Below the pieces are notes generated by a model. It saw only the letters and a program-made list of their open reading frames with translations, had not been told where the DNA came from and did not search any database. Shown piece by piece: positions 6,334 to 64,000 of a stretch of DNA of 64,000 nucleotides; within the stretch, counting starts at the first letter, position 1; every line of letters starts with the position of its first letter. The position numbers were made by a program, and so were the translations under genes. The stretch is from Polytrichum commune (Eukaryota > Streptophyta > Polytrichopsida > Polytrichales > Polytrichaceae). The DNA is taken from positions 8,556,001 through 8,620,000 of the forward strand of contig OX485804.1 in assembly GCA_950295325.1 (NCBI GenBank). The letters run 5' to 3'.

Positions 6334-8838
6334 TACCTTTCAAATGACGGGTTAAGAAAATCTTAATCTTTCACACAAAACTGAAAATCAAATTATATTC
6401 TTTTAAAAATGAATGTAGAGGAGTTTGAACTTCTTACAATATTTAGCCCAAACTAGAACTCTATGGTTCCTCATGTTGCACCATAACTCAAATAATGCCC
6501 TCCAATCCGTATTCTCCACCTCTATCCCACATAATGATACTCATATCGAAGCATCCAAAGTGTCCACCTTCAATGAAGCTTTGCCCCTGCTAGTAAGTGT
6601 TTCTAAACACCCATCCCACACCAATTTATTGGCTCTGTCTGTAGGATAGAGACTATGCATCAAGTTTTATGTTTCAAGAGCAAATTTTCTAACCACTTTG
6701 CGTTCACACTTGGACGTTACATGTTCCTATTATTTCTGGTCGAGTCTATTTAAGGTGGATGATGAAAGTTTGCATACCTTGGACAACTAACCAACTACTT
6801 CATCTATTAGTTAACTAGTTGCCTTTCGTAACTATAGTTGTTCACGATTTGAACTACCAAAAACTGTAGTTAACTATAGTTATATACATCTAGTTTACTA
6901 TAGTTGTTCCCTAAAATGTATTGAAAAAAATATGATTGGTTATTGTTTGTTATAGGTATAGTAAATAGCCATGGACTGGCATGAGCAAAGTATACAACTA
7001 CACCTGTAGTCTTTCATAAGAAAGGACAGAGCCTCACGGTTCTACCGTTTTCTTGTTATAATTGTGACTTGGACGTGATTCATAATTGCTCCTTGAAGGA
7101 TCATGTAAATCACTTTTCTACATACATATTATCTCTCACTATTATGGTTTATGTTGGTGGCAATTAATGGTAGTCCACATGTAATTTGATTGTAGGGTGC
7201 AGATGCAAAAGTCACTAACCTTTTTAGCCAATCTTTTTAGGAGTCCCCATGCTAGTTGCTTCCAAACACTCAAACTTACACCAAACTATAACCAACCTCA
7301 CAAGTTGTTGATCTATAACATTATTTAGCACTTGTTTATATAACGTAGGTTGTATTGGCATTGAGACTTGCTATTGCTTTTGGAAACATGAGTGGATCTT
7401 AGTTTATGGGAATAGTTGCAATTTTCTGTTACCTCAAGTCTTCTCTCAAACTCTTGAGTGAAACCCTCGACCTCCAACCCTAGATATTATTACTAGCTAC
7501 TTCCTCCCTGGACATTATTCAAGCTCCCTTGCACACATCATCACATTCTGCAAAATTTATGTTCAACACAAAGTTTAGTCTAAGGTGTCATTTACAAGTG
7601 TAAAAGTTAACCAATATCTTCTAAGTCACTATGAAATCGAAGTGTGACTTATATATTACGGAATACAACATTGTTTGCCCATATTTATGGGATATGGTTG
7701 ACGGGCAATGATTTAGGGGACCTTTCTTTTGATAGGTTAAATTTTTTTTGGCCTTTCCATGTCATGGGTTTTTTTGCCGTTTTTTCTTTTCTTTCAACAT
7801 GCAAGATTAAATTCCAAATTTTATATGCTTTTCTCTTGGCTTGTGACAGGTGCAAAACGAAACTTAGTCATGGTATCAATACACACCTACACATACACAA
7901 AATATCAATAATTAGTGGTATCCAAATGGCTAATTGTATATGGGGCTAGGGATCCATGGTGTCCACGTAAGCGCATCTATTAGCAAGATGAAAATGTAAC
8001 GAACTATTTTAAAGGTTGAAACAACTATTTGTAGACTATTTGACTTTAGAAATGATATCAAAGGCCCTGAATTCCTCTAAAGGACTTTAGTTGGAATGAA
8101 TTGGGCCCTCGACTTTGTAGGGGAGTACGTTTTACTAGAGCCCTTTCATTCATGATAGATGAGTGACTTTACATAAATGCCACGAACCCCAAGCTAGAAA
8201 TACATGCTTGCTTTGGTTTGGTAACACTTACCAAAGGATGACAGAAAAAATCGACCACCTATAGGGGTTGCTAATTCATCCCATTTTAAGCTCACTAATT
8301 GTTGCGGGGTGCCTAAACCCCAAATTCAAGGGGATTTTAGCTTGAAAAAGTAATATCCAAGGCTCTATAATAATAAACATTTCCACCCTCCAATCTCATG
8401 ATTCGCCTTCCCCCCTCAGTAGGTGGTGTTGTTGTGACCGTTCACTCTGGCCCAGTGTTGTGAAAATGCTTGGGTTTGGGGTTTATGGTGGCATCTACAT
8501 AAACTCGTCCATCGTGGATAAAGGGTTGTAGTAAGAATGAGTCCCTTGCATGTTTAGGGTTGATTTGGTTCAACTGGATTGATTAAGGGTCTATTATGCC
8601 ATTTTCAGAGTTCAACATTCTTGAAATCGTAATTTGGGGGGTAAAGAATAGTCCCTTGCGATTTCATATTCTCCAATGGATGAGTGTATGTGAACGCCAC
8701 AAATCCTAACCGGCCAAGAATTTGTGGTGTCTATGTAAACTCATCCATTCATTAGGTGAATACACAATGAACTAAATTTATATATTATTTTAAAGGTTAA
8801 TATTTTAAGATGGCTTAAATTGTTGTCAATACAACGAG
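6334..8838. other. no gene recognised
   Basis: AT-rich sequence without a supported gene; the longest frame (7644-7949, 101 codons) has no recognisable content. Near 8150 and 8490 are partial copies of a short sequence (a 'gatgagt...ttaca...gccac' motif) that also builds the hairpin at 8678-8755. Confidence 0.4.
8678..8755. repeat. inverted repeat (hairpin) of about 35-bp arms
   Basis: The left arm starts aatggatgagtgtatgtgaa and the right arm ends tatgtaaactcatccatt. The two arms are imperfect reverse complements around a short ggccaag loop. Fragments of the same arm occur near 7960 and 8489, so it belongs to a small dispersed foldback-type repeat. Confidence 0.55.
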
Positions 8839-9332
8839 GGCCACATCACACATGAGACTGAGAGCCCGTGACACTTCAAGCACTCTCATTGGTGGAAAAG
8901 GCGGAGCCGGTCCAAGTTCGCTTCACATTACGCTTGAGGGTCCAACAAAGTATGGGAATGCAAGATGATGGATGTAAAGTCTACATGGATTTCTACGTGG
9001 CATCGAATGGATCATGTTTCATGGTCACTCGGACTATTTTCAAAAACCACCTCTTGGAAGTAGTCTTGGCACAAAACCGGGAGACCATGGCACTTCGAAT
9101 GCTCACAACCATTGATTTATTTGATTTTATCATGTGTGATGACTTGCATAATAAAAATTCATTAAAATAGCGTTTGGTTGAGGACCTGGTCACATATGAG
9201 TTCACACTACACTTGAGAGTCCGTGACCACACGACATGATTTTGGAGGTGTGGTAGGACGGCCTTTGGACACTTTCTTTTGGGCTCTCACAATTTCATGG
9301 TCACGGCTCTTGGCTCGTGTGTGAAGTGGCCC
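8839..9332 (+). mobile_element. Harbinger-type MITE, family A, copy 1
   Basis: Ends are GGGCCACATCACACATGAG and, inverted, GGGCCACTTCACACACGAG. Flanks are CGA on the left and TGA on the right, a decayed 3-bp TNA duplication. The 494-bp body closely resembles 44284-44806 and, inverted, 53112-53611, including the phrase CGTGGCATCGAATGGATC. It carries a 62-70 codon open frame shared with those two copies. No transposase is encoded; mobilisation by a PIF/Harbinger transposase is inferred from the ends. Confidence 0.85.
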
Positions 9333-12095: not shown

Positions 12096-12653
12096 TCAAC
12101 CATCTAACTCCACCTCTTCTAGTGATAATGCCCTACGCTTGTTGGTTCTTGTGCCAATTTTCCAAGATTCAAAAATACTATCCCAATCCATGAATTCAAC
12201 TCCTAACCCATTTAGACTAACCCTCATTAAAGCATCTAGTGTGTCAAGGTTGAGTCTAGTTCTCCTTTCACTCTTAACCCAATTTTGCTTTGAAAAACCA
12301 CGCTCACAAACAGCAGTGCTAGTTGGGATCACAAGTATGGCTTGCCATAGCGACATCCTAGTTGGCCAATTAATCATGAACTCCCGGTCATTGCCACAAA
12401 AAACCCAAGCTTCTTGCATACTTCGGCGTTCACAAACGGAACATAACATCTCCACGAATTCTAGCAATTCCGCGTTGCATTGATTAACAAGGTCATCGCT
12501 CCAACGGAAATGTGTCACCAACCGGTTCAACCATTGTTCCGTTAATGTCCCTCTGTCCAATTCATCTACGGGATAGTGCTTCGGGCTAAAAAGCCGGGCG
12601 GCATTGAAAATGGACAAGTCAGGGAATCGATCATTGAGTTGCATCAATTTGAT
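12096..12653 (-). pseudogene. hAT transposase, C-terminal dimerisation region
   Basis: A minus-strand frame of about 185 codons has the conserved end of the hAT transposase: WVFCGNDREF, WPTRMSLWQAILVIPTSTAV, CERGFSKQNWVKSERRTRLN and LDTLDALMRVSLNG. This is the hATC dimerisation domain (usually W..L..iPa.sv..ER.FS......r..l......l...l). The variant with 'PTSTAVCERGFS' is typical of a plant lineage related to ZNF862-like proteins. No ATG begins the frame, and the catalytic DDE/insertion region and BED zinc finger are absent upstream, in line with an internal deletion of the element. The frame itself has no stop over the conserved stretch. Confidence 0.85.
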
Positions 12654-12721
12654 CAACCTAATTCATCAATTTGATCGGTTGCATTCACAATAAGATGACG
12701 AAACCGGTCTCTGGCACAAGA

Positions 12722-17867: not shown

Positions 17868-20800
17868 TCACTCAGTCCGTGGTTTTTTCAAAGAGGATGC
17901 ATTTACACTGCTCTGCTCCAAAGTAACTGCCACTTCTGGGTTCACAAATGCCACAGCTTGAGGGAGGTCAAAACTAACACACAACATTATCTGCAAGCAA
18001 CCAGGTCAAGGGTCATTCCTATATTTTGATAATCACCAAATTCAACTGATAAGGGATTCTGTTGGCATTAAATTTCATTGACGCACGGTCCATACAGTTT
18101 TAGTAGATGCAATTTAAGGTTCTCCAATTACCACTTGGAGAAAAGGGAGCCCTAATGTAGGGCAAATACTCCATAGAACATAGTACTCTAGGTATAGACA
18201 AATGCTAGAATCCTTTCACAAGTTATGTCCAGAAAAATAAAAGCACATAAGACAAAGCCAACAACTTGAAGTTTGATGGAGCTCCTGAAAGGTTTGATCA
18301 ATACCTTATTTGGGGCAACATCTCGAACAATGTACACTTCTGGCTCATTGATAGACCCACCCAAGTACCGCTCGGCTTTCTGCTTATGAGAATGATATAT
18401 CATGTCAGAGGAACCATAAAAAAGAAAAAATGATTCTCGAGGAGACTATTCATCTAATTTGGCAGGACTAACTATTTCCAGTATAGAGGATTGGGAGAAA
18501 TAGAGATGTAATATAGAGGATTGGGCAACCTTATGTAAAACATTTTGCCCAATTGGCTGGAGGGTAGTGACTGCGAGTAAGATGGGGACGTTATAGAATT
18601 ACATATTCCATAAAGGTCTAGTTGTCACACCTTTATGATATCTGCTTGAGTCTCATTGGACCGCATGAAGCAGTAACAATGAACACGTGGCATATTGCCC
18701 TTCCATCTCTCCTTGCACAGAAGTCCATTTAGAACATCTGCAAATAAACAAACCAAGCACCTATAGTGAGAAGAGAGTTTGCAAAAGATGAGACTATGCA
18801 TCCACTGCTCAAAAGGACGTAACAATATAATATCAGAACAAGCTGTGAATGGGTTAAATAAAATGAACATTTTGAGCATTATCAACTATCTTAAGTCAAC
18901 AAACAGCAATGAAACTTGTACCAAATTATGACGACCAAAAGGCCCCTAGTGAGCACAATTGGTGATAAGTAATGTAATAACTGTATTGAAATAAGATACA
19001 ATGAACCTCAAAAGAGCTGGACAGACAGTAACAAAACAGATCACTCACCTAAAAACTCCAGGGCTGATGCCGGTAAATTCATTACAATGTGATCAAAGTG
19101 CTCCCAAGGTTTGGGTTCAGCAAGAACTTTCATTCTGGGTTCTGCTTTTTTTGCAGTCCTACCTTTTCCTCCTCTCCCTTGCTTAGCTTTCAGCTGATTG
19201 CTCCCTATGTCGGCTATGAAGATAGTAACAATCCACTAGGTGAGATTCTTGAGACAACCCTCCTAACATACACAATTTTGCCACATAGACAAATTCACAT
19301 AAACTACGTTAAGTAGCACATCGAAATGAAGACAACGGGACCACATACAGAACAAGACAACCTCCAAAACTTTTATCAACATGGTATCATGAACTGATCA
19401 AATACAATGTAGTACAGAAGAGGCCAGATTCTGCAAACAAAAACTATGTACAGAAAACTCATGATAGAAAATATATGTAAAGCTTACATGGTTCAATATC
19501 TCCTCTCGATTCACCCACTGCACAAGCACCTTGTGAACTTTCATTTCCAGCTTTTGATTCGCTCCCTTCAATATTCATGATATCCTCAACCCCACTTGTA
19601 CTTCTTTTCTCAGTAGCTATTGCAGACAGTATATTTTCTTCTTCGCAAATGGCAGGTACTGTTTTTTCAATGATGAGTTCACGCATAAACTCTCGTGCAT
19701 CCATATTGAAGACCTTTACTCTATCTCCAACTTTATTGATTTCTGAGTTGATCTTCATATACTTCGTACTCATTGGATTCAAATCATTTGCGTACACAAC
19801 ACAATCTTGTAGAGCTGCTGGAATTGCAAAGGGGCCAATTCCCGCAAACATATCAACAATGACTTGTCCTGGTGTAAACCGAGCAAACAATCGTTTATGT
19901 TCACCCTCCAGCCGAGAATTCCAGTAGACCATACCATAATCAAGGCGGAAAATAGCTCCATGTTGTTTGATTTCAGTAACCAGGTTTGGGTCTCCAGCCA
20001 AAACTTCAAATTGTGGTACTCTGAATTCATTTGAAATTGTCCCAACTTTGTTCACCACTGTCTTCAGTTTTGGATTCTTCTGCAAACATTGGCATTGATA
20101 CAAACCATGAACACCATTGGCTTCGAAGAAAATGAACAATAATAGTGCTGCTCATTCAAAAAGGGGAGGCATGCAGAAAATTGCATGTTCCAAACATCCT
20201 TTAGTTGTCCTCTTCGAGTGATACAAGAGAATGCCTGTTACTACTACAAAATTGAGAGTCCTGAGGTCATTTTGGCCTACAGGATTGATCCTCAATCTTT
20301 TCAATATAAAGAGAGATATCTCCAATTGAGCATTTCTATATTCGAGAACACCAAAATATTGATTCAAAATGGTAGGGGGTGATACTCACATCCAGTATGA
20401 CTGTAGCAATGATCTTCTTGTACCGCAAAAGATCATCCCGCAAATTGAGATGTGCAATATGCCCTGAAAGACCAGTCCAAACACACTGAACAGCCTAACA
20501 AAAAACAAGAGTGCGGATTGGTACAAGTGTGCAAAAACATCCAAGGATCTCTTTCTTTTTGTAACCATAACCTCAAGTCTCATGTACTATGGATCTCTAA
20601 GAGGAAATATGTGACCACATCCTACAGTAAACAACCTTTGTGCAATAAACATGTAATCTCAGATACATATCCAAGAGTGGACTCAAAGTAAATAATGTAT
20701 TCACTCCACATGACTTACCAATCGTCTCAAATGAAGATGGCACCTCGCAGCCGCAAGGTAAAATCTCTTTCAAAATGTGCTCTGCACCCCCCATGCCAAC

Positions 20801-23519: not shown

Positions 23520-24338
23520 GGGGCACTGTTACTCGAGAGCTTGAGGGCCCGTGACCATTGAAATCCAAAATCTCTCATTGGTGGAAATTGCCGAGGCCGT
23601 CTCACTTTACTTTACACTAGAGCTTGAGGGCCCGAGGAACCAAGGATGTTTGAATGGATAAGAAAAATCTAGTATCTTCATTTTTTATACCATTTGGATA
23701 TCTATAATGGGGATTTTCCATCTTTTATATCAATAGGGTATGTGTATTTAATATCGTTTGTGTTTTCGATATCATTCACAATATCATATCAATATAGCAT
23801 AACATTGACCCAAATAATAACTATAGGTACACAGAGATTCTCACACTTTGACAACCCACCCAATACCACTGCTTGACTGGTATTACAATCTTGATACTTA
23901 CGGGTAGGTTCTTTGATACCATTACTGATGTTGATTATCGATACCCATGCATTCACTTATATATTGGCTCGACATTGGAACAAACCTACATGCAATCCTA
24001 CATGGCATGCAATGGAAAATGTTTCATGGTCTATCATAATTTATATCAATTTTATTTCAAAGAGTGGTTCTAACAAAAAACCAGGAGACTAAGATGACAT
24101 TTCAAATTTCCACAACTCTTGGCTTTAATATGATTTACTATATTGAATGACATGCATGAATAGGATGGGAATGAAATAACATATAGTTGAGAGCCCAGTC
24201 ACATATGTCTTTACACTACACTTGCAAGTCTTTGACCATACAAATTTCAACTTTGTATATTTATAATACAACCTTTGGATGGGATTCTAGGGCCTCACAA
24301 TGTCATGGCACAACCCTTGGCCATATTGTAAAGTGGCC
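23520..24338 (+). mobile_element. Harbinger-type MITE, family A, diverged longer copy
   Basis: Flanked by TTA at 23517-23519 and at 24339-24341. The left end GGGGCACTGTTACTCGAGAG is a damaged form of GGGCCACTTCACACACGAGA; the right end keeps AAAGTGGCC. The body contains family A words: CTCATTGGTGGAAATTGCCGAGGC, the ATGCAATCCTACATGGCATGCAATGG counterpart near 23990, and the ending 'cacttgcaagtctttgaccata'. At 819 bp it is longer than other copies and highly diverged. It lies directly at the presumed 5' end of TRM5. Confidence 0.65.
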
Positions 24339-24341
24339 TTA

Positions 24342-25738
24342 GTTGAGTGCATGAGGTTTCCATGCTTCTCCTAGTGAATTGAATGAAGATGCTTGGCCTA
24401 CGATTACACCAATTTCTCCTATTATTGTGGGTTATCATTTCGAGTCATGTGTTCTTTTGGCTTTTTTTAATATCAATTCTTGCTAAGTAAAGTATTTTTG
24501 ATTTCTTGATGTGCATACTAACCATTTGTGTTATTTGGGTTTAGATTGATGTTTTAAAATTATGGTACGTACAAACTAACGTGAATGTAAAAAGGGGCTT
24601 TAATTGAGGCATCCGTATACATACTATACATAAGGAGGAGGTATTGTGTTTCTCTACTATTTACATACGAAAAGGTTACAAATTATTCCAAAGTTTAGAG
24701 AGTTTAGATGGATGTACAAAAGGAGATTCTAATGTTCACTAAAGATTTGACAATAGATGTATATTCTAGGGTTGAATTATTATGAGTTACATCTTGTGGA
24801 TGAAAATTTCTCCAATAACTTTCTTAATGAAAATCAAAATGAATTGTATACATATTAAGGCCTACATTTTCATGATTTATATTTTGTATATGTAGTGGAG
24901 GTATTTATCACAGTAGATTCAAAACCTTAGTATGAATAAACGAGTCCATTTTCTAGGAGACTATTAGTATATGTACCTTTGTTTTTCTCTTGGGCATTCA
25001 TTCCAAAACTTGTAAGGGTTCCATGTAAATGGTCTAAGATTTGAAATTGATACGTTTTTTCTTCTAGGTTTCTTCCATTGTGTCATCCCAAACTTTATCA
25101 AAAGACGTGAATCTTCATTACACTATGACATCTAATTTCATGTGGCCTGCGATGTTCATCCTTGACACACATACTTAAATGGTCTTGCAAATCACTGGGG
25201 TGTCAACCATAAAAGTTGGCATGAGACACTTGTTGCTAATGTACGTAAGTGGGCCTTTCATGGTTATGTTTCTCAATTGGACACCTATATTTGAATGGTT
25301 TGTGGTCAGGTCTAGATGTAAGAACACACACCAAAAAGATGTGTGTTTAAAAGAGATTGGACTATATGTGCACGATATGGTAAGCGTTCTAGCCTCAATA
25401 GTCAACATAATTGGAGGGGCATATGTGACAATTTTGATCACATTGAGAATCTTCACTTTGACATTGAATAAGATATTCATATGAGCTCCCAAAATCATGA
25501 GACACATTGTTATGAACATGTCTTGGAATTGGAGACCATCGCACACTAATTATGTGTTTCAAAACCTACACTACAAGAAGTGGGTGCAAAGTTTAAAGTG
25601 GTCATTTTACACCCGGTTACATTATATGACAAGTCATGGAGGCCAATCTAATCCACACTCCACATCAAATTAATGCCACACTAAATCATATACATACATG
25701 TGTGGTTCACCCAATTCAAAAACACTAAGGGCCTCTTT
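24342..25738. other. no gene recognised
   Basis: AT-rich; complementary open frames at 25175-25546 (minus) and 25179-25484 (plus) show no known motif. Parts near 24590-24660 and 31370-31440 are similar ('gtgaatgtaaaaaggggcttta/gagtgtaagaaggggtatta'), so an old dispersed repeat runs through here. Confidence 0.4.
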
Positions 25739-26224
25739 ACACACATATCAATAGCCATGACCATGAAAATCTAAGAGCCCTGGAAAATCATCAAAAGGTC
25801 ACGCTATGGGAAATAGAAACCCAAATTTGCAATTGACAGGCCCTCAAACTTAGAGTAAACTGAAGGGGAACCATGTTGAGGAACCGCAACATATGTTTAG
25901 ATCATGTCCTCACCATGCCAATATAATATAAATCTAGAAGTCAATGACAACTTAAATGATTGGCACATCCCTTGGGTCTTGCATTAGACCCACTTCTTTT
26001 TTATGGGCTTAGCACAACATCCGGTAGACCATGAGACATTATCCACTTGCTGCCATGTAGGACACCATGTACATTATTCATCCACTCGAAGTTCTCTAGT
26101 TCCTCGTCAGGCCTCGAAGGTCTAATTTCAAATGAACTTGGACCGTTTCCAACTTCTTTGATCAAATGACACGAGTTCCATATCACAGCTCAAGAGCCCT
26201 CAAGCTCCAAGCATAAAGTGGCCC
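25739..26224. mobile_element. Harbinger-type MITE, family B (A-related), copy 1
   Basis: The left end GGGCCTCTTTACACACATAT and inverted right end GGGCCACTTTATGCTTGGAG are flanked by TAA and TTA, consistent with a TNA target. The body, read on the minus strand, contains GGATGAATAATGTACATGG and CATGGCAGCAAGTGGATAATG, the diverged counterpart of the family A segment TACGTGGCATCGAATGGATC. A similar copy is at 53913-54404. Confidence 0.75.
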
Positions 26225-26310: not shown

Positions 26311-26664
26311 GCCACGCGTCATGCTCACATTCGTCACGACCCGCTTGTATCCCACATGGAAACTACATTACAACACTTTTAAAAGATTGAAATAGGGAGC
26401 CCTCTACGGTATTATCGAATTTGTGAAACACTTCACTCCTAAAAGTTTGCATGTTGAAAAAGTCTTTTAAGAAGCCCTTCGTGACTCGCCACGTGGCATG
26501 CTCGCATTCGTCACGACCCGCTTGTATCCCATGTGGAAACTACATTACAACACTTTTTAAAGATTGAGATAAGGAGCCCTCTACGGTATTATCGAATTGG
26601 TGAAACACTTCTCTCCTAAAACTTTGCATATTGAGAAGTCTTTTGGGAAGCCCTTGGTGACTCC
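26311..26664. repeat. tandem duplication of a 177-bp unit
   Basis: The unit starting GCCACGCGTCATGCTCACAT (26311) is repeated from 26488 as GCCACGTGGCATGCTCGCAT. Both carry TCGTCACGACCCGCTTGTAT, GAGCCCTCTACGGTATTATC and a closing 'cccttnngtgactc'. A distant relative of part of the unit lies near 55190-55290 ('gagagctctctacagtaatggg'). Confidence 0.85.
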
Positions 26665-26859: not shown

Positions 26860-27083
26860 TAATTTATGTGGGTGTTATTTGGTTTGTTTTTCATTGTCCT
26901 CCAACTTCTACTACTGATAAGATTTACACAACGAAACTTGTGTTGCATCAGCAAATCTACGATGAAACATCTAGAAAATCGGATTGGAAATCGAACCTCT
27001 CTTGATTCAGTTATGGTTATCAGGAGTGGGTGTTTGTTGATTCTTTAACATACATGGGTCCTCTCAATTATGTCCATTGTAAA
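26860..27083. repeat. dispersed repeat R1, copy a (left part, split by the Harbinger insertion)
   Basis: Contains CCTCCAACTTCTACTACTGA, AGCAAATCTACGATGAAACAT and CAGTTATGGTTATCAGGAG. The same order recurs at 55735-55975, 57540-57682 plus 58187-58410, and 58430-58620. The right part of this copy resumes at 30562. Nature unknown; no coding frame conserved. Confidence 0.65.
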
Positions 27084-27325
27084 GGGCCGCTTTACACAAG
27101 GAGTCGAGGCCATCAAAAGTTGGGGCCGTTTCAACCAAAATTTCAGCCCTAATGGCCCCAAGTTCGGCCTCAAGTGGTCATTTTAATAAGAGTATAACCG
27201 GGGCCAAGACTCTTGTGTGTAAAGGCCTTGGGGCCAAAGAGTCAAGACTATTGTATAAAGCCTTGAAAATTCCAGCCCATCTCCCTCTTTCTTCTTTGTC
27301 ATTTGCTCTTCTTGTTATTTTCAAG

Positions 27326-28672
27326 ATGGATGAGCATAGGCACAAGGTACTTGTGGCTCTTGTATTCTTCATGGCCATACGGCATGTTATGGCCGTTGTT
27401 GCAATATTGCAGCAACTAGCTTTGCACCAACATTATGGTGCTATGACAATGATGTTTGCGGTTATGGTGGGGGGGGAGTGGAGCTCGAAGGGGGGCACGG
27501 AGTGTTTGGATGGTTGATCGGAGGACCAATTTTATGGAGAGGCAATTATTGGGGAGCTATTCGACATATGCATTTAAGCAACATACAAGGTTACTTCCAG
27601 AGATTTTTGAATATTTGTGTGGTGTATTAGCTCCTTCATTAGTTCGATCAGATTCACACATGCGATTGGCCATTCCTATTCGAACTCGAGCTGCACTTTC
27701 ACTCAATAGGCTTTGTAGTGGAAATTCAATTAGCGGGTGTGCTGAAACGTATGGTATTCATGAAAGTACTGCTTCTATCATTGTTAGAGAATTTTGTACA
27801 ACAATTGACAAACATTTGAAACCATTAGTGATTGAAAAGCAATCAGCATCTATTTTGAGGAGAATGACAGCAGAGTTTGAGGCATTAAAGGGTATACCAT
27901 ATGTGATTGGGCCAATAGATGGAAGTCACATACCCATCATGGCACCTCCTATAGATCCCACCTCATATTATTGTAGGAAAGGCTATTATTCAGTTTTACT
28001 TCAAGGTATAGTTGATAGCAAATGTCGATTTTGGGACTATGACTTTGGATGGGCTGGCCGTTGTCACGATTGGACATTATTTCAAAATTCAGACATTGGT
28101 AAAAGGATAATGAGAGGCGAGTTATTACCCTATAAACTAATCGGTGATGCTGCTTATCCAATGAGACCATGGTTCTATTCACCTTTCAAAGGTGAAAATG
28201 AAGGGTTGCCTAGAGCAAAGTGTCACTGGAATTTCATTCAATCTTCTATAATAATGGTTGTGAAGAGGGCTTTTGGTATATTAAAAGGACGGTGGAGAAT
28301 TATTTGAAGAGAGTCGATATGCCTTTACGACATGTACCAAATCTAGTCACAACTTGTATATGCCTACATAATCTTTGTATCATTCACAAAAATAAATTTT
28401 ATTTGGATTGGGCAAAGGAGGGTGAGACACTGATGCAAAGAGAGAGTTTGGAGCGAATTGGACAGTTTGAGAAACCATACATTTTCATGGCAGCAGTGGA
28501 GGTTACCAAAGAAATGCGTCATTTATTGGGATTGGAAGAATACATTATACCTATAGAAACACTCGATGAACCTGATGACATCAATGACAAAGACACTCAA
28601 GAAACTGGAGACAAAGAAAAAGAGAGAAACAAGAGTGAAGAATATGTTGGTACAAGCTACCAAAACTCATGA
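27326..28672 (+). pseudogene. PIF/Harbinger transposase (HARBI1-type nuclease), frameshifted and with altered catalytic site
   Basis: The frame opens at ATG 27326 (MDEHRHKVLVALVFF). It shifts at an eight-G run near 27469-27476 into the frame holding the main domain, and shifts back near 28300, where one T seems lost just after the block GRWRII. The C-terminal part (LKRVDMPLRHVPNLVTTCIC, LHNLC) is in the first frame and ends at 28672. The DDE_Tnp_4 nuclease is clear: GPIDGSHIPI (Asp codon 27918), HDWTLFQNS, GDAAYPMRPW (Asp codon 28146) and VKRAFGILKGRW. In the last motif families have Glu (V-E-R-A-F-G); here the codon at 28263-28265 is AAG, Lys. Two single-base shifts plus loss of the catalytic acid make an active protein unlikely, yet the rest is well preserved. 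Confidence 0.92.
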
Positions 28673-28781
28673 ATTGATGGCAAATGCATTCTGGAAAGCA
28701 CATTTAAGGGGAGAAGGAAAAATATTCTTCCCCAAGCCATTATCTGATTCTTAAAAATACTAGAATATAAATCGTAGAACC

Positions 28782-28805
28782 TAGAGCCTAGAGCCTAGAG
28801 CCTAG
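28782..28805. repeat. 7-bp tandem repeat CCTAGAG
   Basis: CCTAGAG is repeated three times, followed by CCTAGAA, between the convergent ends of the two Harbinger genes. Confidence 0.8.
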
Positions 28806-30039
28806 AATTTGTCAATGAGTCTATTCATTTGCCGGTCTATCCTCTCCAATAAAGTACTGGTTTTCTCAAAATTCTTCACCATGATAGTGTTGTTCTCAAC
28901 CATTTGAGTAAAAAGACCAAAAGTTTGTTCCTAAAAACTCTACTTACCGCTCTTTAGTGATGAAGTTGGAGTTGGCTCTGAAATTTGGTCTTTCTCTGGT
29001 TTTTTGGTACTGTCTTCGATACAAGTAGAACCATTGGCAGATGCGGTGACATGCTTCATCACGGTACCTGTTTGATGCCACCATTGATCAAATACATCGT
29101 AAAATTTACATTCATGACGATCTGACCCGGAGACCCCATTCGCCATCTTATCAAGCCGGTATTGTTTATAAATGACATTGAATTTCTTTTTGCATGCCTT
29201 GGCAGTTCGGTTTAATCCAAGAATTACAACTACCATTCGTGCATGTAACTTCAACCAAACATCCACACCTGCACAATACATTAGGAACCCAAAAACATGT
29301 TAATGAAGTACATTTAGGCTTGAATTGACCTCTAAACTATGTTTTGTTTAGAAATTTCAGTAGTGATTTGTGTACAAAAACATAGTCATTGTGACTTTAT
29401 ACATCCAAAGTGAGGAAAGAATGATGGTGGCCCGTTGTATCCATAGTGCCTTGGCCTCGTGCATACGAGGTGCAAGGGTCAAATCCTCCCACCGCCACAC
29501 GGATTGATTTCCCCTCCCCTGGGGGAAAGGGGGGCTCGGAGGTGAGATTCCAAGGCCAAGGCTTTTGAAAGGCCCAATTGGCCTAATATAAAATCTGAAT
29601 TTTTTTTTTAAATTTTTTTTGAAAAATTTAGCACAACAAACAAATTCAACACACCTTGTTTTTTTGCATTATTGAGAAACTCGGGCTCCATCTCTCCACG
29701 CAATGCGATCATCACCTCAATATCGGCATCTTTCCAATGCTTCTTCTCTTCTTCAGTTTCTCCCTCCTTCTCCTTATTCATAATTTTCTTTGTCACCTTC
29801 TTTGTTGTTGTTTTCCTCTTCGGAGCATTAGGGGTGACAATCTGGACATCATCGTCTTCGTCATCTTGGACAACCTTCCTCTTCGAATGAGTCAACACCA
29901 TCTTTGAGATTGATGGCAGTGGGGGTGGAATAACATTTCCTACACTTGGCTGAAAAAATTGAGGCATTCCTACATGTTGCTGAAAAGAATGATTGTAGGC
30001 CTGAAATGCTTGTACTTCGGCACTATAATACATGTGCAT
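28802..30039 (-). pseudogene. Myb/SANT (trihelix)-like protein of the Harbinger element, two exons, C-terminal stops
   Basis: Exon 1 30039..29655 starts at the first ATG after an in-frame TAA and joins exon 2 from 29268 through a GT-AG intron (K-Q-G-V-D junction). Residues about 60-90 are basic (KRKTTTKKVTKKIMNKEKE), a possible nuclear signal. The trihelix-like domain then runs KKHWKDADIEVMIALRGEME across the junction to NRTAKACKKKFNVIYKQYR and FYDVFDQWWHQTG. In Harbinger elements such a protein binds the ends and helps nuclear import of the transposase. The frame stops at 28940, but in the same frame, after two TAG codons, a heptad-like tail (FTQMVENNTIMVKNFEKTST, LLERIDRQMNRLIDKF) continues to a stop at 28802. 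This suggests an originally longer protein now truncated. Confidence 0.85.
29427..29612 (+). mobile_element. probable tRNA-derived SINE in the intron of the Myb-like gene
   Basis: A GGTGGCCCGTTG start, a stem CCTCGT..ACGAGG and a box-B-like GGGTCAAATCC followed by TCCCACCGCCAC give a tRNA-like head of about 75 bp. Behind it come a C/G-rich body and a homopolymeric T/A end (29598-29620). It lies wholly inside the intron 29269-29654. The polymerase III box A is not well matched, so the call is tentative. Confidence 0.45.
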
Positions 30040-30561
30040 CGCCTCACACTCCGATTCATTCCAACCACGAACTTCTGAGGAACCCTCCTCTTAAAGCAAA
30101 AAAAAAAACAAAAAAAAAACAACAACAACAATAACAACAACAATCGCATACGAGAACAACAATCAAACAAGCCAAAGAATGTGCTATGAGTGAAGTGAGA
30201 GAGATAGAGAATGATGAGAAGAGAAGAAGATAAAAGAAAGAATAGACCAAGAAGAGCCGTTCAGATTTCTAATCCATCCTCCGGTGCTGATCTCTTGTCA
30301 AAATAATATTTTAATGAAAAAATCATTTTTAATGAAATTTGACAACAGCCCCAAGACAACGAATTGGCCTTCCATTCTCGGCGGACCCAATTCTTGGAGT
30401 TGGGGCCATGTCAGATCTTGTCGTTTAAACATTAAAATAATTTTCCTACTTTCGGTTTTGACTCCTTGTGTAAAGGCCTTCGGGCTGATTTCATAAATTC
30501 AACCAATGGGCAACAAGGATTTGGCTTCAAAACGGCCTTGACTCCTTGTATAAAGCGGCCC

Positions 30562-30930
30562 TAAGTGTAGAGCATTGTATCATCTCTATCACATTGGCTA
30601 TTTATGGGTAAGTAAGTATTATGTATATTTTTTATTCGACAATCTTGGATCTAAAGGAAAAATAAACAATCTTGTATTATTTTCTATATTTTAAATATAT
30701 AATTTCTGAATATTTTTTATTTTCCTACGAATAATAATTAGTATTGAGGTGATAAAGGCACTACTGTAGTTATTAACATTTGAAGATGTAGCCTAATCTC
30801 TTTTAAACATGTGTTTTCGTGATGTTTGGTCTTTAATCCTTACTAAACCACATATATACCAATCAAATGTAGGGGTCCGATTAAGAAATTGAGCCATTTT
30901 AGAACCATCTACCTTAATCGGTCAAAACCC
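30562..30930. repeat. dispersed repeat R1, copy a (right part)
   Basis: Resumes after the Harbinger element with TAAGTGTAGAGCATTG and later GAAGATGTAGCCTAATCTCTTTTAAACATG and AATGTAGGGGTCCGATTAAGAAA. These match 58268-58410 and 58520-58600, where no element intervenes. Confidence 0.65.
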
Positions 30931-42851: not shown

Positions 42852-43409
42852 GGGCCGCTTCACACGATGGCCGGAGGTCGAGAGGGCGTCGATTTCCACC
42901 AATGTTCAAATGGAAAGAATTCAAGAATTTGGCCTCTGGACCCTTTCACACTAGAGGCCAAAGTTCAAATGATGTCGCTCTCCAAAATGCCTACATGACA
43001 AGACTTTTTGACCAAGGCGACGGACTCTCGAAGGAAGTTCGGGTCGGACATGGATGGAAACCCAAACTATGGTCGAGAGGCCGTCGATTTTTTGCATGAA
43101 AAGAGTAAAAAAATTTACAATATCTTGGCCGTTAGGTTGGAGGGGTTGTTTTGGGCAGGGAATAAAGTGGGATGCTCCTTCTTCCTCTAGACTTTGGGCT
43201 TGGCCTTTGGAGGCTTCACACTATGGCCGTCCAAGTCGAGAGGCCGTGGGAGTTCATGGCCAAAGGTTTGGACTTTGGAAGCTTCACACTATGCCTGGCC
43301 GAAGGCTCCAATTCATGTATTTTCAGCCCATTTCTTTGGACTCTCAACAAAATTTGGCCATTCAATCCCACGGCCTCTTGACTTGGATGGCCATAGGGTG
43401 AAGCGGCCC
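42852..43409. mobile_element. Harbinger-type MITE, family C, copy 1
   Basis: Perfect TAA duplication (42849-42851 and 43410-43412). The ends are GGGCCGCTTCACACGATGGC and, inverted, GGGCCGCTTCACCCTATGGC. The body is shared with 56469-56961: GAAGGAAGTTCGGGTCGGAC, TGGCCGTTAGGTTGGAGGGG and GATGCTCCTTCTTC. No transposase. Frames of up to 115 codons within it are not alike in the other copy beyond nucleotide similarity. Confidence 0.92.
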
Positions 43410-44283: not shown

Positions 44284-44806
44284 GGGCCACTTCACACACG
44301 AGACTGAGAGCCCGTGACTATTACACTTCAAGCACTCTCGTTGGTGGGAAAAGGTGGAGCCGGTCCAAGTTCGCTACTTCACACTCCGCTTGAGGGACCA
44401 ACGGAGTATACAAGTGAATGCAAGATGGATGTGAAGCCTGCATGGATTCCTACGTGGCATCGAATGGATCGTGGTTCACGGTCACTTGGACTATTCTCAA
44501 AAACCACCTATTGCAGGTAGGTTCAACGCAAAACCAGAAGACCATGCCACTCCGAACGCTCACCACCGTTGATTTATTCTATTTTTTTTTAATCATGTGT
44601 GAAGACCTGTATGAATAGAAATTCATTGAGATAGCATTTGGTTGAGGACCCGGTCACATATGACTTCAGAATTCACTTAAGAGTCCGTGACCACACTACA
44701 TCACATGATGTTGGAGGTGTGTTGGGATGGCCTTTGGACACTTTCTTTTGGGCTCTCACAATATATCGTGGTCATGGCTCTTGGCTCGTGTGTGAAGAAG
44801 TGGCCC
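44284..44806 (+). mobile_element. Harbinger-type MITE, family A, copy 2
   Basis: The left end is GGGCCACTTCACACACGAGA; inverted right end GGGCCACTTCTTCACACACG, with a 3-bp insertion. Flanks TTA and TAA fit a TNA site with one change. The body is colinear with 8839-9332 and 53112-53611 (CGTGGCATCGAATGGATCGT; CCTTTGGACACTTTCTTTTGG). A 66-codon open frame (44418-44618) matches the frames in those copies. Confidence 0.9.
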
Positions 44807-45500: not shown

Positions 45501-45904
45501 TATACAATGAGCATGTATATGTTCGACACATGTGTTTCATTTCATTCTTATTTATTTCAATCATCCAATGAGCACGATATAATGGTTGCTTCAGCAAGTG
45601 ACACCTGGCGCCTGAATAGGCGGTGACCTACCGGGTTATCCACTTGTTGACATGTTTACATGTTTACATACATGTTCATCTATCTATGCACCGTGTAGTA
45701 TTTATACAATGAGTGTATATGTTCGACACATATGTTTCATTTCATTTTTATTCTTTTTATTATCCAATGAGCATGATGTAATGGTTGCCTAAGCAAGTGA
45801 CACCTTGCGCCCAAATAGGCGGTGATCTACTGGGCTTTCCACTTGTTGACTTGTCTACATGTTTACATACATGTCCATCTATCTATGCACCACTGGTAGG
45901 GTAC
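45501..45904. repeat. tandem duplication of a 202-bp unit
   Basis: TATACAATGAG starts at 45501 and 45703. Both units contain TATGTTCGACACAT, ATCCAATGAGCA, AATAGGCGGTGA and CTATCTATGCACC in order. Divergence is moderate. Confidence 0.85.
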
Positions 45905-53111: not shown

Positions 53112-53611
53112 GGGCCACTTCACACACGAGCCAAGTCCCGTGACCATGAAATTGTGAGAGACCAAAAGAAAGTGTCCAAAGGCCGTCCCAACATGCCTCC
53201 AAAATCATGTAGTGTGGTCACGGACCCTCAAGTGTGCCTTGAAGTCATATGTGATTGGGCCCTCAACCAAATGCTATTTCAATGAGTTTCAATTCATGTG
53301 AGGTCCTCATGTATGATCAAACAAAACAAATCAATAGTTCTGAGGTTTCGGAGTGCCATGATCTCCCGGTTTCGTGTAAGGTCTACCTTCAAGACGTGGT
53401 TTTTGAGAATAGTCCAAGTGACCGTGAAACATGATCCATTCGATGCCATGTAGGAATCCATGTAGACTTCACATCCATCTTGCATTCACATACTCTATTG
53501 GTCCCTCAAGTGTAGTACGAAGCGAACTTGGACCAGCTCCGCCTTCTCCACCAATGAGAGTGTTGGAAGTGTAATGATCACGGGCTCTTAGTCTTGTGTG
53601 TGAAGTGGCCC
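53112..53611 (-). mobile_element. Harbinger-type MITE, family A, copy 3 (inverted)
   Basis: Perfect TCA duplication (53109-53111, 53612-53614). Ends are GGGCCACTTCACACACGAGC and, inverted, GGGCCACTTCACACACAAGA. The body is family A in opposite orientation, including CCAAAAGAAAGTGTCCAAAG and, antisense, the CATCGAATGGATCATGTTTC phrase. The 63-codon minus frame 53294-53485 corresponds to the frames at 8868-9170 and 44418-44618. Confidence 0.93.
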
Positions 53612-53912: not shown

Positions 53913-54404
53913 GGGGTGCCCCACATGTGGACCAAGAACTATGACCATGGAAAACTTAAAGGCCCTTGAAAATGATCCAAAGGCAGGAAATCAAAAATCC
54001 AATTTTCTAATTGATGGACCTGCAAGCTCAATGTAAAGTGAAAGTGGAACATGTCAAGGGACCGCAAGCTATGTTCAAGTTCAGGTCCCCATCATGCTAA
54101 TATACTATTCCTAGGAGCCAATAACAATTATATTGATTACCACACCCCCTAGTTTTTGCGTTAGACCACCGTTTTAACAGGCCTAACATAGTACCCGATA
54201 GAGCACGAAACATTATCCACTTGTTGCCATGTAGAACGCCATATAAATTTTTCATCCATTTGAATTTCTTTGGTCCTTCGGGCCTTCAAAGCCTAGTTTA
54301 AAGTGAACTTGGACCGTCTCTAGCTTCTCGACCAATCATATAACTTGAATATCACGGGTCAAGGGCTCTCGAGCTCTTCCTAGTGTAAACTTTTAAAGTG
54401 GCCC
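53913..54404. mobile_element. Harbinger-type MITE, family B, copy 2
   Basis: TAA lies at 53910-53912 and 54405-54407. The left end is altered (GGGGTGCCCCACATGTGG); the inverted right end is GGGCCACTTTAAAAGTTTAC. The interior follows 25739-26224: GGCCCTTGAAAATGATCCAA, CATTATCCACTTGTTGCCAT and 'tcgggccttcaaagcct'. Confidence 0.8.
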
Positions 54405-56229: not shown

Positions 56230-57037
56230 AACTTTTCGGATGACACTCCTTATGAATAAGTGAAGAAATATTGCCACGGATGATGGACGAGTTCATCCAT
56301 TGGCCAAAACCCTACCTTCTCTCGCCAACAACTTGTGATGAAATACTGTCATGGATGATTGAAACCTGGATGACAAACCACTTGGTAAGTGATAGTTTTT
56401 ATTTTATTTTTATTTTTATTATTTTTATTTTTTACAATGAGTGACAAACAACATTGGGTTAACAGTTAGGGCTGCTTCACACTATGGCCGAAGGTCGAGA
56501 GACTGTTGATTTCCACCAATTAGGTTGCAAGAAACCAAGAATTCAGCCTCTCGACCCTTCACACTAAGGCGAAAGTTCAAAGGTTGTTGCAATTTAATCT
56601 GCTTACTTTTTTACGAAGGCGACGGACTCTCAAAGGAAGTTTGGGTTAGACGGGAATGAAAACCCAAACTATTGTTGAGAGGCCATCGGTTTTATTTCAT
56701 TAAAAAAATCAATCATTGACAAGATCTTGGCCGTTAGATTCGAGGGGTTGTTTTGGGCAAGGAATAAAGCAAGATGCTCCTTCTTCGTTTGAACTATGGG
56801 TTTGGCCTTTGAAGGCTTCACACCATGTCCGACCAAAGGCTCCAATTCCTATATATGTTGTTGGTCGACTAATTTCAGCCCAATTCTTTGGACTCTCCAC
56901 AAAGTTGGGCCATTCAATCCCACGGCCTCTCGACTTGGACGGCCATAGTGTGAAGCGGCCCTTAGTGATGGTGACACTACATCACAGATTACGATTCGTA
57001 TTGAGCCTGACAAGGGGGATTGGTGACACTGAATACC
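56230..57037. mobile_element. MITE with CACTAA ends (family E, copy 3), interrupted by a family C MITE
   Basis: 56236-56390 follows copy 1 closely (GATGAGTTCATCCATTGGCC counterpart; CCTACCTTCTCTCGCCAACA; TTGTGATGAAATACTGTCAT; CACTTGGTAAGTGATAG). After the inserted element, 56962-57037 resumes the copy 1 order 'ttagtgatggtgacactacatcac' to ACTAGTG. The left terminus is not preserved. Confidence 0.7.
56469..56961. mobile_element. Harbinger-type MITE, family C, copy 2, nested in a family E MITE
   Basis: Perfect TTA duplication (56466-56468, 56962-56964). Ends are GGGCTGCTTCACACTATGGC and, inverted, GGGCCGCTTCACACTATGGC. The interior is colinear with 42852-43409. The target is exactly the 'acatTTAgtgttggtga' site that is uninterrupted at 6248-6260. 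Confidence 0.94.
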
Positions 57038-60500: not shown

Positions 60501-62125
60501 AAAGAGCCCTCCTCAAGGGGAGATGGGGATTTCTGCCTTGATAAAACAAGGGGTTTCAGGTGGCGTCCAACTTCCGTTGGCAAAAACATTTCTAGCAGCC
60601 CTCTCTTAGACCTCACACAAGAAAATGCACGCCCTTCACTTTCACCCTCTCACCGCGGAGTCGGGAACTGGTGAAGCCAATGAAAGTGGCGAAACGTAAG
60701 AACCAAAATTTGCTCTTCGCCACCACCACCACCATATCATATGTTCTTCGCCTGCCCGGATCAAACTGCCCTTTTCCGAGAACGCCCTCTCTCCGTGCAT
60801 CGATTGGTTCACTGTTGAATTTGTAGAGCCAGCTGTTGAGCGGGCAGGTAGTGAGAGAAAAACCGCAGTAGCTGAGCTGAGCAGCGCTGCGCCTTCATGT
60901 GCGTCGTCGCCTTCGCAACGCCGTCCAGATCAGCAGCCTAGCTTAGCGAAGTGCCGCGCGCTCTCTTCTGTCGCTGGCTCCGTTTCTGGGTCTATTTACC
61001 ATGCAATGCTGTTGCAATGGAATGACACGCACCATCGGGGAGATGATTGCGATGAGAGCCAAGCAAGTTGGGTAAAGGGTGCGTAAGCCAGCTGCTTGGA
61101 TCCCCCCCCGGCCCCCCCCCTCCACTGCACTCCACTCCACTCCAATTCTCATCTGCTGCGCCTGCTCGCTACTGCCAGCTTTTAACTTACATGCAGCGAG
61201 GTGAGGGGAGCTCTGGATCAATTTGTCACACTCGCCACGTCGCTTGCTAGCTGTGCTCTCAGAAGCACCTTCACATCACATTCTTGTTGGAACTAGGTTT
61301 CACCAGCGGATTCTCAACCAGCAGCATTATCCCCGCCCCTTAGTATCTGCTGTATGTAAGTCTGTGTGTGTGTGTGTTGTGGACAAGGGTTTTGGAGGTT
61401 TTGGGTTCTGAGGGATGAGCTGGATCTGCTTGCAAGCAGGCATGTTTCGTGGCCAACAATCAATCTTTTGGTTGCTAAGAAGTTTCTGTCAGTAGAGTCG
61501 GAGGGATTGAAGAAGAAGTAGGAGGAAGAAGAAGCATCAGAAGAATGATGCACTGTAGTGCAATGTGGCTCCAGCTTCTGCAGCAGCCGAGTTGGTGATC
61601 TGTAGCTCGACTCTGCGTGGGCGACTCCGGCGCGAGCTTGTTTTGGTATTGGTCGGAAGACTTACAGGGGTTAAGTGAAGTGTAGCTTGGTTGGGGAGTG
61701 TTGGTGTGTGCACGTCGGCACTGCACGGCCTGCAGGAGTCACGCTCATCACAGCTCATGCTCCAGCTGCGACGCTGCTGACTCAGATTTTTGGAGAGGGC
61801 GGAAGGACATCCGTGGCAATGGCTTGTCACCGTTTAAGGCAGTCCTGATCCAGCTAGCTAGCTAGGTTGGGACACCACCGGCCGCCTTTAGTTGGATAGC
61901 TCGATCGCAGGTTGTGTCGATCCCAGGGTGACGACAGTTGGTTCTGGATCGCTTCTTAATGCTTGGAATGAATCGATGATGTGTGAGCTCACAAAGAGGC
62001 GCAGCACTCCATTGATACTATTAGAAGAAATTACTACATACTTTCGGATGTCGATGGGTTCTTGGAACTAATCAGGAGCAATTTGTTCTGAGGCAGGGGT
62101 AGGGCATTCGGTCGGAGGAGGAGCT
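60501..62125 (+). promoter_or_regulatory. probable promoter and 5' UTR of the aspartic protease gene
   Basis: GC content rises and CG dinucleotides become common from about 60640. C-rich runs occur at 61101-61120. An in-frame TAA at 62069-62071 and no ATG between it and 62126 fix the protein start. Transcription start, TATA box and any leader intron cannot be chosen with confidence. Short frames here have no known content. Confidence 0.4.
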
Positions 62126-64000
62126 ATGGAATCAGCTGCGGCGAAGCAAGGAAAGGTGTCCGGGAAGACAGTTATCTCTGCTGTGAGATGGACAGTGGCG
62201 CTGAGTCTACTTGTGTACGCAAGCCTCACGGCTATGGAGGAGTACCGCATCTCCACAACCTCCGCGGGTCATGCTCCTGACGTCGTTGGATGGAAACCTC
62301 CAGGAGCAGCTGCATCAAGTTTCCTTCAAGCTGCGGCTCGACGTGTGAATTGGAGAGCGAACTCCAAGAGTGATGATAAAAACCTTCTTCAGCAACCTGT
62401 GCAGCAGGGAGCAATGAAAACTTCGAGGAGGAGCAGAAGCAGGAGTCTTGCTGCAACGAACGTCGAGAAGTTGTCCGGGTTTAAGGTGCACATGGTGCAC
62501 CGAAACTCACCAATCTCACCTTACCGAAGAGAGTATAACAGCCGATTGGAAGCACTAAAAGAAGACCTCGCAATCGATGAGATGCGTCAACACGCATTTC
62601 GAAGACAAAGGTATATGCGGTCAGAAGCATCATCATCATCACCATCAGCAGCACGAACAACAAGTCCGAGCTCGAAATCAAGCTCTGGATCCTCCCCCGT
62701 GAGCTCACCTACACTCACAGCAGTGATTGAAGGGCCTGGGGCTTCACCACAACACGAGTACAACTTTGAGTCACCACTTGTCTCGGGTGCAACCTTAGGG
62801 TCAGGACAGTACTTCGTGGAGTTTTACCTTGGAACACCTCCTCAGAAATTTGCACTCATCGTAGACTCTGGCTCAGACTTGATCTGGGTGCAGTGCACAC
62901 CATGCAAGCAATGCTTCGACCAACAAGGCCCTCTATACGACCCTGGAAACTCCACAACCTTTCGTCCTGTCCCATGTCTGTCGTCAGAGTGTCTCCTTAT
63001 CCCCGCAGTGCAAGGTTTTCCATGTGACTTTCGGTACCCTGGAGCTTGTGCATACGAGTATCAATATGCGGACACATCATACACACGTGGAGTGTTTGCT
63101 TACGAAACTGCAACTCTTGGTGCTACAAGTGCAACTGGGGATGTCCGCATTGACAGAGTTGCGTTTGGATGTGGGAATGAGAATAGCGGAGCAAGCTTTG
63201 CTGCTGCCGGGGGGATCATTGGCCTTGGCCAAGGGCCTCTTTCCTTCACCTCGCAGATTGGATATGCTTATGGAAACAAATTCTCCTATTGTCTTGTGAA
63301 CTACCTTGACCCTACGTCTGTTAGGTCGTCTTTGGTGTTTGGGGATATTGAGAGCAGTTTGCTTGCTTCCACGAAACGGGAGCTTATGTATACGCCGATC
63401 GTTGCGAATCCCAGGAGCCCGACGTTGTATTATGTCCAGATTTACCAGGTTACAGGTAAGTTCAGAACATCGTCATTATCAGAATTCAAAAGCCAACCAG
63501 GTTGAGAGAATAGGTTAGGTCATTCATGTATGTCACAGCTTCAAATGCATAGGATCTTAAGCATGTTTGAGGGTATTCGAATTACCTAAGAATTATTCCA
63601 CTCGCATTGGAAGTGACTAAGTAGGCTACTTAAGAATGTTATTGTAGATGATACTGCATGACGAGTGTGGGAAAGAGATTTTAATCGCCAGTTGATCATC
63701 CCATCGATTATTGCAGTCGATGGGGCCGACTTGCAGATTCCCGCGTCAGCCTGGACCGTTGACGACGCTGGCGATGGCGGCTCGGTGTTCGATTCCGGCA
63801 CCACGATAACTTACTTCGTGCCTGCGGCTTTTCCCGCGATTTTTTATGCGTTCGATCAGGCGATCAAATACCCGCGGGTGAACTCGGTGCAGAACCTTGA
63901 CCTGTGTTTTAACATCTCTGGGATTAATGAGCCCAAGTACCCATCGTTCGGAATCAAGCTTGCGGGTGGCACGTACTTCCAGCCACCGAGCGACAATTAC
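62126..64000 (+). CDS. nepenthesin-like aspartic protease (peptidase A1 family), 3' part beyond the window
   Basis: Exon 1 62126..63455 joins exon 2 from 63717 across a GTAAGT-GCAG intron; 538 residues are visible. An acid-type endopeptidase of the secretory pathway or cell wall is expected. Residues about 15-34 (VISAVRWTVALSLLVYASLT) are a signal peptide or signal anchor. A long Ser/Arg-rich region and the family prodomain (FKVHMVHRNSPISPYRREYN) follow, then a Ser-rich linker. The catalytic domain begins at GQYFVEFYLGTPPQKF. The first active Asp is D247 (VDSGSD), the second D469 (FDSGTT). Between them lies the plant-type cysteine-rich insert (CTPCKQCFDQQGPLYDPGNS ... CAYEYQYAD). A CDR1-like relation is suggested by the 'HRNSPISP' motif. 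The start is set by an in-frame upstream TAA. No damage is seen. Confidence 0.93.

Follow-up and report, generated by a model that had tools for sequence, protein, structure and literature searches.

Transposons of the PIF/Harbinger superfamily are described, in the cited sections of PMC4482050, PMC2836001 and PMC6327408, as carrying two genes, one for a DDE transposase and one for a Myb/SANT protein, and as being flanked by 3-bp TWA target duplications. Their terminal inverted repeats (TIRs) usually begin with A or G (PMC4482050), most PIF-like ends start with G(N)5GTT (PMC2213677, PMC6327408), and the TIR length given is 14-25 bp (PMC2213677). In Harbinger3_DR (PMC9710019) and in rice Ping/Pong (PMC2836001), a Myb-like protein is reported to bind the ends or subterminal motifs and to bring in the transposase, which cuts.

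The window analyzed here, a 64-kb stretch of DNA, contains an element of this kind at positions 27084-30561 (3,478 bases), with two convergent genes lying between inverted ends. We are confident, short of certainty, that this is a cut-and-paste DNA transposon of the PIF/Harbinger class, present at full length but dead, with a plant genome as its probable host. The original prediction of a two-gene PIF/Harbinger-class element with matching 28-bp TIRs, a DDE transposase and a convergent Myb/trihelix gene is borne out, with both genes recognizable and both ends present: the TIRs start with GGG and are identical at 26 of 28 positions, the transposase matches the Pfam domain DDE_Tnp_4 of Harbinger/IS5-type enzymes at 73.7 bits (E 1.7e-20; cut-off 24.8), and the partner gene, once spliced, matches Myb_DNA-bind_4 at 47.7 bits (cut-off 27). 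The features expected of an autonomous element are lacking, in that the third position of the DDE triad is a lysine and the reading frames are broken by two frame changes in the transposase gene and two TAG codons in the Myb gene. The element is real and extends from end to end, yet its damage goes further than was apparent at first, and it does not qualify as a nearly intact master. Its ends, genes, domains, frame changes, stops and the lysine in the glutamate column are results of the analysis; its past mobility and the order of events we infer from them.

Ends, target site and subterminal repeats

The features at the two ends of the element are as follows.

27084-27111, plus strand: left TIR, 28 bp, matching the right end at 26 of 28 positions
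30534-30561, minus strand: right TIR, 28 bp, matching the left end at 26 of 28 positions
27080-27083, no strand: left flank TAAA, its TAA one base off the TIR, read directly
30562-30564, no strand: right flank TAA, adjoining the TIR, read directly
30460-30475, plus strand: subterminal repeat GACTCCTTGTGTAAAG, identical to the inner left TIR (27090-27105)
27208-27262, plus strand: two degenerate copies of GACTCCTTGTGTAAAG (27208-27227 and 27246-27262) with length differences, by direct reading

The inverted repeat extends to 29 nt (27083-27111 and 30534-30562; 93%) when one flanking A/T pair is counted in, and the two differences among the 28 TIR sites are both transitions. A 23-base piece of the TIR occurs at exactly two places in the 64 kb at up to three mismatches, with 0.00 expected from 100 shuffles; at the same tolerance, no further copy of the 28-bp ends was found in the window besides the element's own two. 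Neither the viral nor the prokaryotic genome contig collection contains a match to the TIR pattern. The flanks, TAAA on the left and TAAG on the right, make the target-site duplication imperfect by one base in the only copy seen, and amount to a TAA duplication in which a single base was altered or gained.

Both ends read GGGCCGCTT and are without the G(N)5GTT start, so we do not place the element in the PIF subgroup that has such ends, but file it under PIF/Harbinger by its two genes. The inexact target-site duplication and a TIR that exceeds the published 14-25 bp and is without G(N)5GTT count against the identification preferred here. At up to three mismatches, the 16-mer GACTCCTTGTGTAAAG is found at three places only in the 64 kb, namely, in the left TIR (27090-27105), in the subterminal copy at 30460-30475, and, with one mismatch, in the right TIR (30540-30555). 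The most plausible candidate for the site bound by the Myb protein is this motif.

The transposase and Myb/trihelix genes

The transposase gene is read on the plus strand in several overlapping frames.

27326-27517, plus strand: probable N-terminal frame from the ATG at 27326 to a stop, assigned by position and reading sense, overlapping the next frame at the G runs
27453-28307, plus strand: main frame with the Pfam domain DDE_Tnp_4, in which the first two catalytic residues are aspartates and the third is a lysine
27918-27920, plus strand: codon of the first catalytic Asp (PIDGSH), residue 156; the column is D in 5/5 sequences
28146-28148, plus strand: codon of the second catalytic Asp (GDAAYP), residue 232; the column is D in 5/5
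28263-28265, plus strand: Lys codon at the catalytic Glu position (MVVKRAFG), residue 271; E in 4/4 bacterial relatives
28304-28672, plus strand: C-terminal continuation in the first frame, an open frame
28640-28754, plus strand: possible last C-terminal stretch in a third frame (MLVQATKTHELMANAFWKAHLRGEGK), which would imply a third frame change

The main frame also matches Plant_tran, at the cut-off of that model (22.0 bits), and the N-terminal frame and the continuation are without a Pfam match on their own. The 284-codon open run of the main frame had no equal in 300 dinucleotide shuffles of the element, where the maximum was 174. Among the searches of solved structures, three gave 0 hits and two gave 1 and 6 weak hits of unrelated names, and the AlphaFold model of the main frame (mean pLDDT 34.8) is not usable. 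The main frame had no match among phages at E 1; a search for its relatives returned one stretch that fits the pattern in the viral contig collection and 53 stretches in the prokaryotic genome contig collection, with 0 confirmed in either.

To place the catalytic columns, and for this only, we used bacterial IS5-type proteins, reached through a distant match on a plasmid (H1, E 7e-3). This locus was fetched together with H24, H25, H27, H36 and H52 (five among the 60 matches listed of 181), and four of the six loci were aligned (L002, L004, L005 and L006); L001, in which the frame ends in the region of the second Asp, and L003, with no annotated frame under the match, were omitted. The four proteins, all bacterial and with no plant relative among them, are 18-21% identical to the main frame; all four carry the same Pfam domain DDE_Tnp_4, and three are annotated as IS5 family. 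A second, profile-based aligner agrees in register as far as the residue preceding the lysine (residue 270 of the main frame, profile position 232), where its alignment stops. Compared with these bacterial transposases, the element shares the domain and both aligned aspartates, and differs at the third position, which is Glu in the relatives. In rice Ping/Pong, the DDE mutation D295A of the transposase is reported to have cut excision about 150-fold (PMC2836001). With relatives this distant, the case for reading the lysine as an inactivating change is strong but not final; it could in principle be ancestral in the family of this transposon.

The first frame change falls in the region of the G runs at 27469-27476 and 27490-27495, the former being the run of eight G near 27470 to which a shift had originally been assigned. 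The second shift had been predicted near 28300 as a missing T; a change back to the first frame does occur somewhere between 28214 and 28307. A third change is possible near 28640, where the frames 28214-28672 and 28557-28754 overlap, the latter with a protein-like C-terminal stretch. On frame 28557-28751, a match to DivIVA (13.8 bits, cut-off 28) was taken as chance. An eight-G run is a typical site of assembly error, and the copy could be imagined to be intact, with the shifts arising from errors at homopolymers. We give this reading hardly any credence: the lysine codon, the two TAG codons of the Myb gene and the TIR and target-site differences are not homopolymer errors, and errors at both shifts would not restore competence, because the catalytic residue would still be a lysine.

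The partner gene runs on the minus strand from about 30090 down to 28940.

29655-30090, minus strand: exon 1, to the limit of the open frame; an upstream exon is possible
29269-29654, minus strand: GT-AG intron, 386 nt, phase 1; splicing raises the Myb_DNA-bind_4 score
28940-29268, minus strand: exon 2, open frame to the first TAG
28805-28930, minus strand: open tail of 42 codons in the same frame after two TAGs, with coiled-coil character by eye

Unspliced, the exon 2 stretch aligns with profile positions 35-88 of Myb_DNA-bind_4 at 26.0 bits, which is under the cut-off (27), and exon 1 alone is without a Pfam match; the 253-residue spliced protein covers profile positions 2-88 of 89. The intron (29654-29269), which had not been part of the original prediction, has the junctions AAG|GTGTGT (donor) and TGCAG|GT (acceptor). 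In the range scanned, 16 GT-AG pairs, the chosen one and 15 others, leave the frame open, and the Pfam score refers to the chosen pair only; this score, rather than transcripts, makes the intron probable. Exon 2 is followed by in-frame TAG codons at 28942-28940 and 28933-28931 and then by the 42 open codons, just as the two TAGs and a still readable tail had been described. The 17-nt GTAAGTAGAGTTTTTAG at the two TAGs resembles both intron ends, but was rejected as an intron on account of its length, which is too small and not divisible by 3. Likewise, a match of the exon 2 frame to DotA (13.5 bits, cut-off 25) was taken as chance.

Inside the intron, at about 29420-29630, a box-B-like GGGTCAAATCC and a poly-T end are what we would guess by eye to be a tRNA-derived SINE; ARAGORN found no tRNA in this candidate, and the nine weak Rfam matches, all below gathering scores, include none of tRNA type there. 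Between the convergent gene ends (28775-28806), a 7-bp unit, TAGAGCC, is repeated in tandem 4.6 times.

The contrast between a spliced frame that is free of interruptions and spans nearly the whole Myb domain, and a neighboring transposase without its catalytic acid, invites comparison with domesticated Harbinger pairs or with ALP1, which is likewise described as being without catalytic acids (PMC4671723). The Myb part might then have been kept by the host, or act as a DNA-binding competitor, next to a dead transposase. We regard this as highly improbable: the TIRs still flank the element, the stops cut off the tail of the Myb protein, and the transposase frame is broken. Our preferred reading remains that of a dead transposon copy.

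Taken together, these lesions alter the picture of a copy "only slightly broken" and recently inactivated. The small number of lesions claimed was an undercount that missed the catalytic lysine, the possible third frame change and the imperfect target-site duplication. The TIR differences at 2 of 28 sites, the duplication one base off and the lesions, including the lysine at the third DDE residue, speak against a very recent inactivation, and none of them dates the event.

Short elements and other features of the window

The outermost sequence of the TIRs recurs elsewhere in the window. At up to one mismatch, GGGCCGCTTYA occurs 14 times, compared with 0.84 expected, and 0 of 100 shuffles reached 14. 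Two of these sites are the ends of the two-gene element, one (27123) lies inside it, and 11 are ends of short elements, whose other three ends came to light with a looser pattern or in alignments.

8838-9332, 25729-26224, 42852-43409, 44284-44806, 53112-53611, 53913-54404 and 56469-56961: seven paired MITE-like elements, 492-558 bp, in three groups

By eye, 12 of the 14 short-element ends fit GGGCCRCTTYACAC with at most two mismatches; of the other two, the right end at 44806 agrees over 10 bases before two extra bases follow, and the left end at 53913 shows five mismatches. The 3-bp target duplications are exact in four of the seven (TAA, TTA, TCA and TAA, of which TCA is not a TWA) and one base off in the other three (TTA/TAA, CGA/TGA and TAA/TTA); identical T-N-A triplets turned up at random pairs of places in 0.17% of 200,000 draws. 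Identity within the three groups is 78.9% (one pair), 83.4-86.5% (three pairs) and 71.6% (one pair). The short elements resemble the two-gene element over about the outer 14 bases and have other interiors: blastn at E 1e-3 gave no hit in the interior of the two-gene element when the queries were five of the short elements plus two stretches spanning the remaining two. Judged by these sequences, the seven look like an old set of non-autonomous, MITE-like relatives and not like recent products of the two-gene copy.

Ends of the GGGCCRCTTYACAC type may mark a PIF/Harbinger lineage whose end type is unlike G(N)5GTT, with the two-gene element as its autonomous form. If the Myb protein recognized the inner GACTCCTTGTGTAAAG, this would explain how the cohort shares the outer bases only and yet was once moved by the same or a sister machinery. 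We put this forward tentatively and with more doubt than belief. The cohort of short elements with related ends also bears on the proposal that the element is the master of a family, lost its activity very recently and has near-intact sisters that can still move. This proposal is compatible with the reading of a dead full-length copy and could draw further on two genes recognizable over most of their length and two ends alike at 26 of 28 positions. Nevertheless, such a recent master is rather unlikely in our judgment, given the changed catalytic residue, the two TIR differences, the imperfect target-site duplication, the two Myb stops and the possible third frame change, as well as the age of the seven short elements (72-87% identity within groups) and their likeness to the element over about the outer 14 bases only.

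Several other features were observed in the window. At 23536-24241, weak matches (67-85%) to the MITE-like short elements probably reflect a decayed or nested remnant. Shortly before the two-gene element, positions 26311-26663 are a tandem duplication of a 177-bp unit with 90% matches, and a similar duplication, with a 199-bp unit, is present at 45501-45891. A hAT transposase fragment (Dimer_Tnp_hAT, E 2.4e-6) lies at 12099-12662. Host-gene-like frames encode a TRM5/TYW2 methyltransferase (19462-20151) and a TAXi_N aspartyl protease (62072-63502); the TAXi_N domain is typical of plants, and gene content of this sort is what points to a plant as the probable host.

Working model and comparison with known transposons

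The working model for the element is borrowed from Harbinger3_DR and Ping/Pong. By analogy, the spliced Myb/trihelix protein of an intact relative would bind to the ends, likeliest at GACTCCTTGTGTAAAG in the TIRs and subterminal regions, and would recruit the DDE transposase to the TIRs. The transposase would then excise the element and reinsert it at a TWA target. The present copy cannot move, because its transposase gene has at least two frame breaks, the codon for the catalytic Glu is one for Lys, and the Myb gene has two stops after the DNA-binding domain.

The value of the locus lies mainly in annotation: the mapped ends, intron and lesions, together with the seven short elements, let annotators seek the whole family in the genome. 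In addition, counts of frame shifts alone understate decay, and the active-site column needs checking before a copy is labeled nearly intact.

In kind, the element is an ordinary PIF/Harbinger two-gene transposon. PePIF1, MtMaster/MtPH, DcMaster, Harbinger3_DR and Ping/Pong were compared by published description and not by sequence. In the cited sections, the plant elements PePIF1, MtMaster/MtPH and DcMaster (PMC6327408, PMC2213677) likewise combine a DDE transposase with a Myb/SANT partner, their TIRs often begin with GGG, and the superfamily has related short elements; ORF1 of PePIF1 consists of two exons (PMC6327408), like the Myb gene here. They differ from the present element in their ends: its TIR is 28 bp long, begins GGGCCGCTTTACAC and is without GTT at positions 7-9. 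Most PIF elements are given as 4-6 kb (PMC4565680), whereas this one is shorter, at 3.48 kb, and dead. AndroPIF of melon is similar in pairing a nuclease with a SANT partner, and melon SANT1 is reported to bind the TIR GGGCCCGTTTG and also another motif, located at peak summits (PMC11161486). In contrast to the element described here, AndroPIF has polymorphic insertions in melon and a TIR with GTTTG (PMC11161486).
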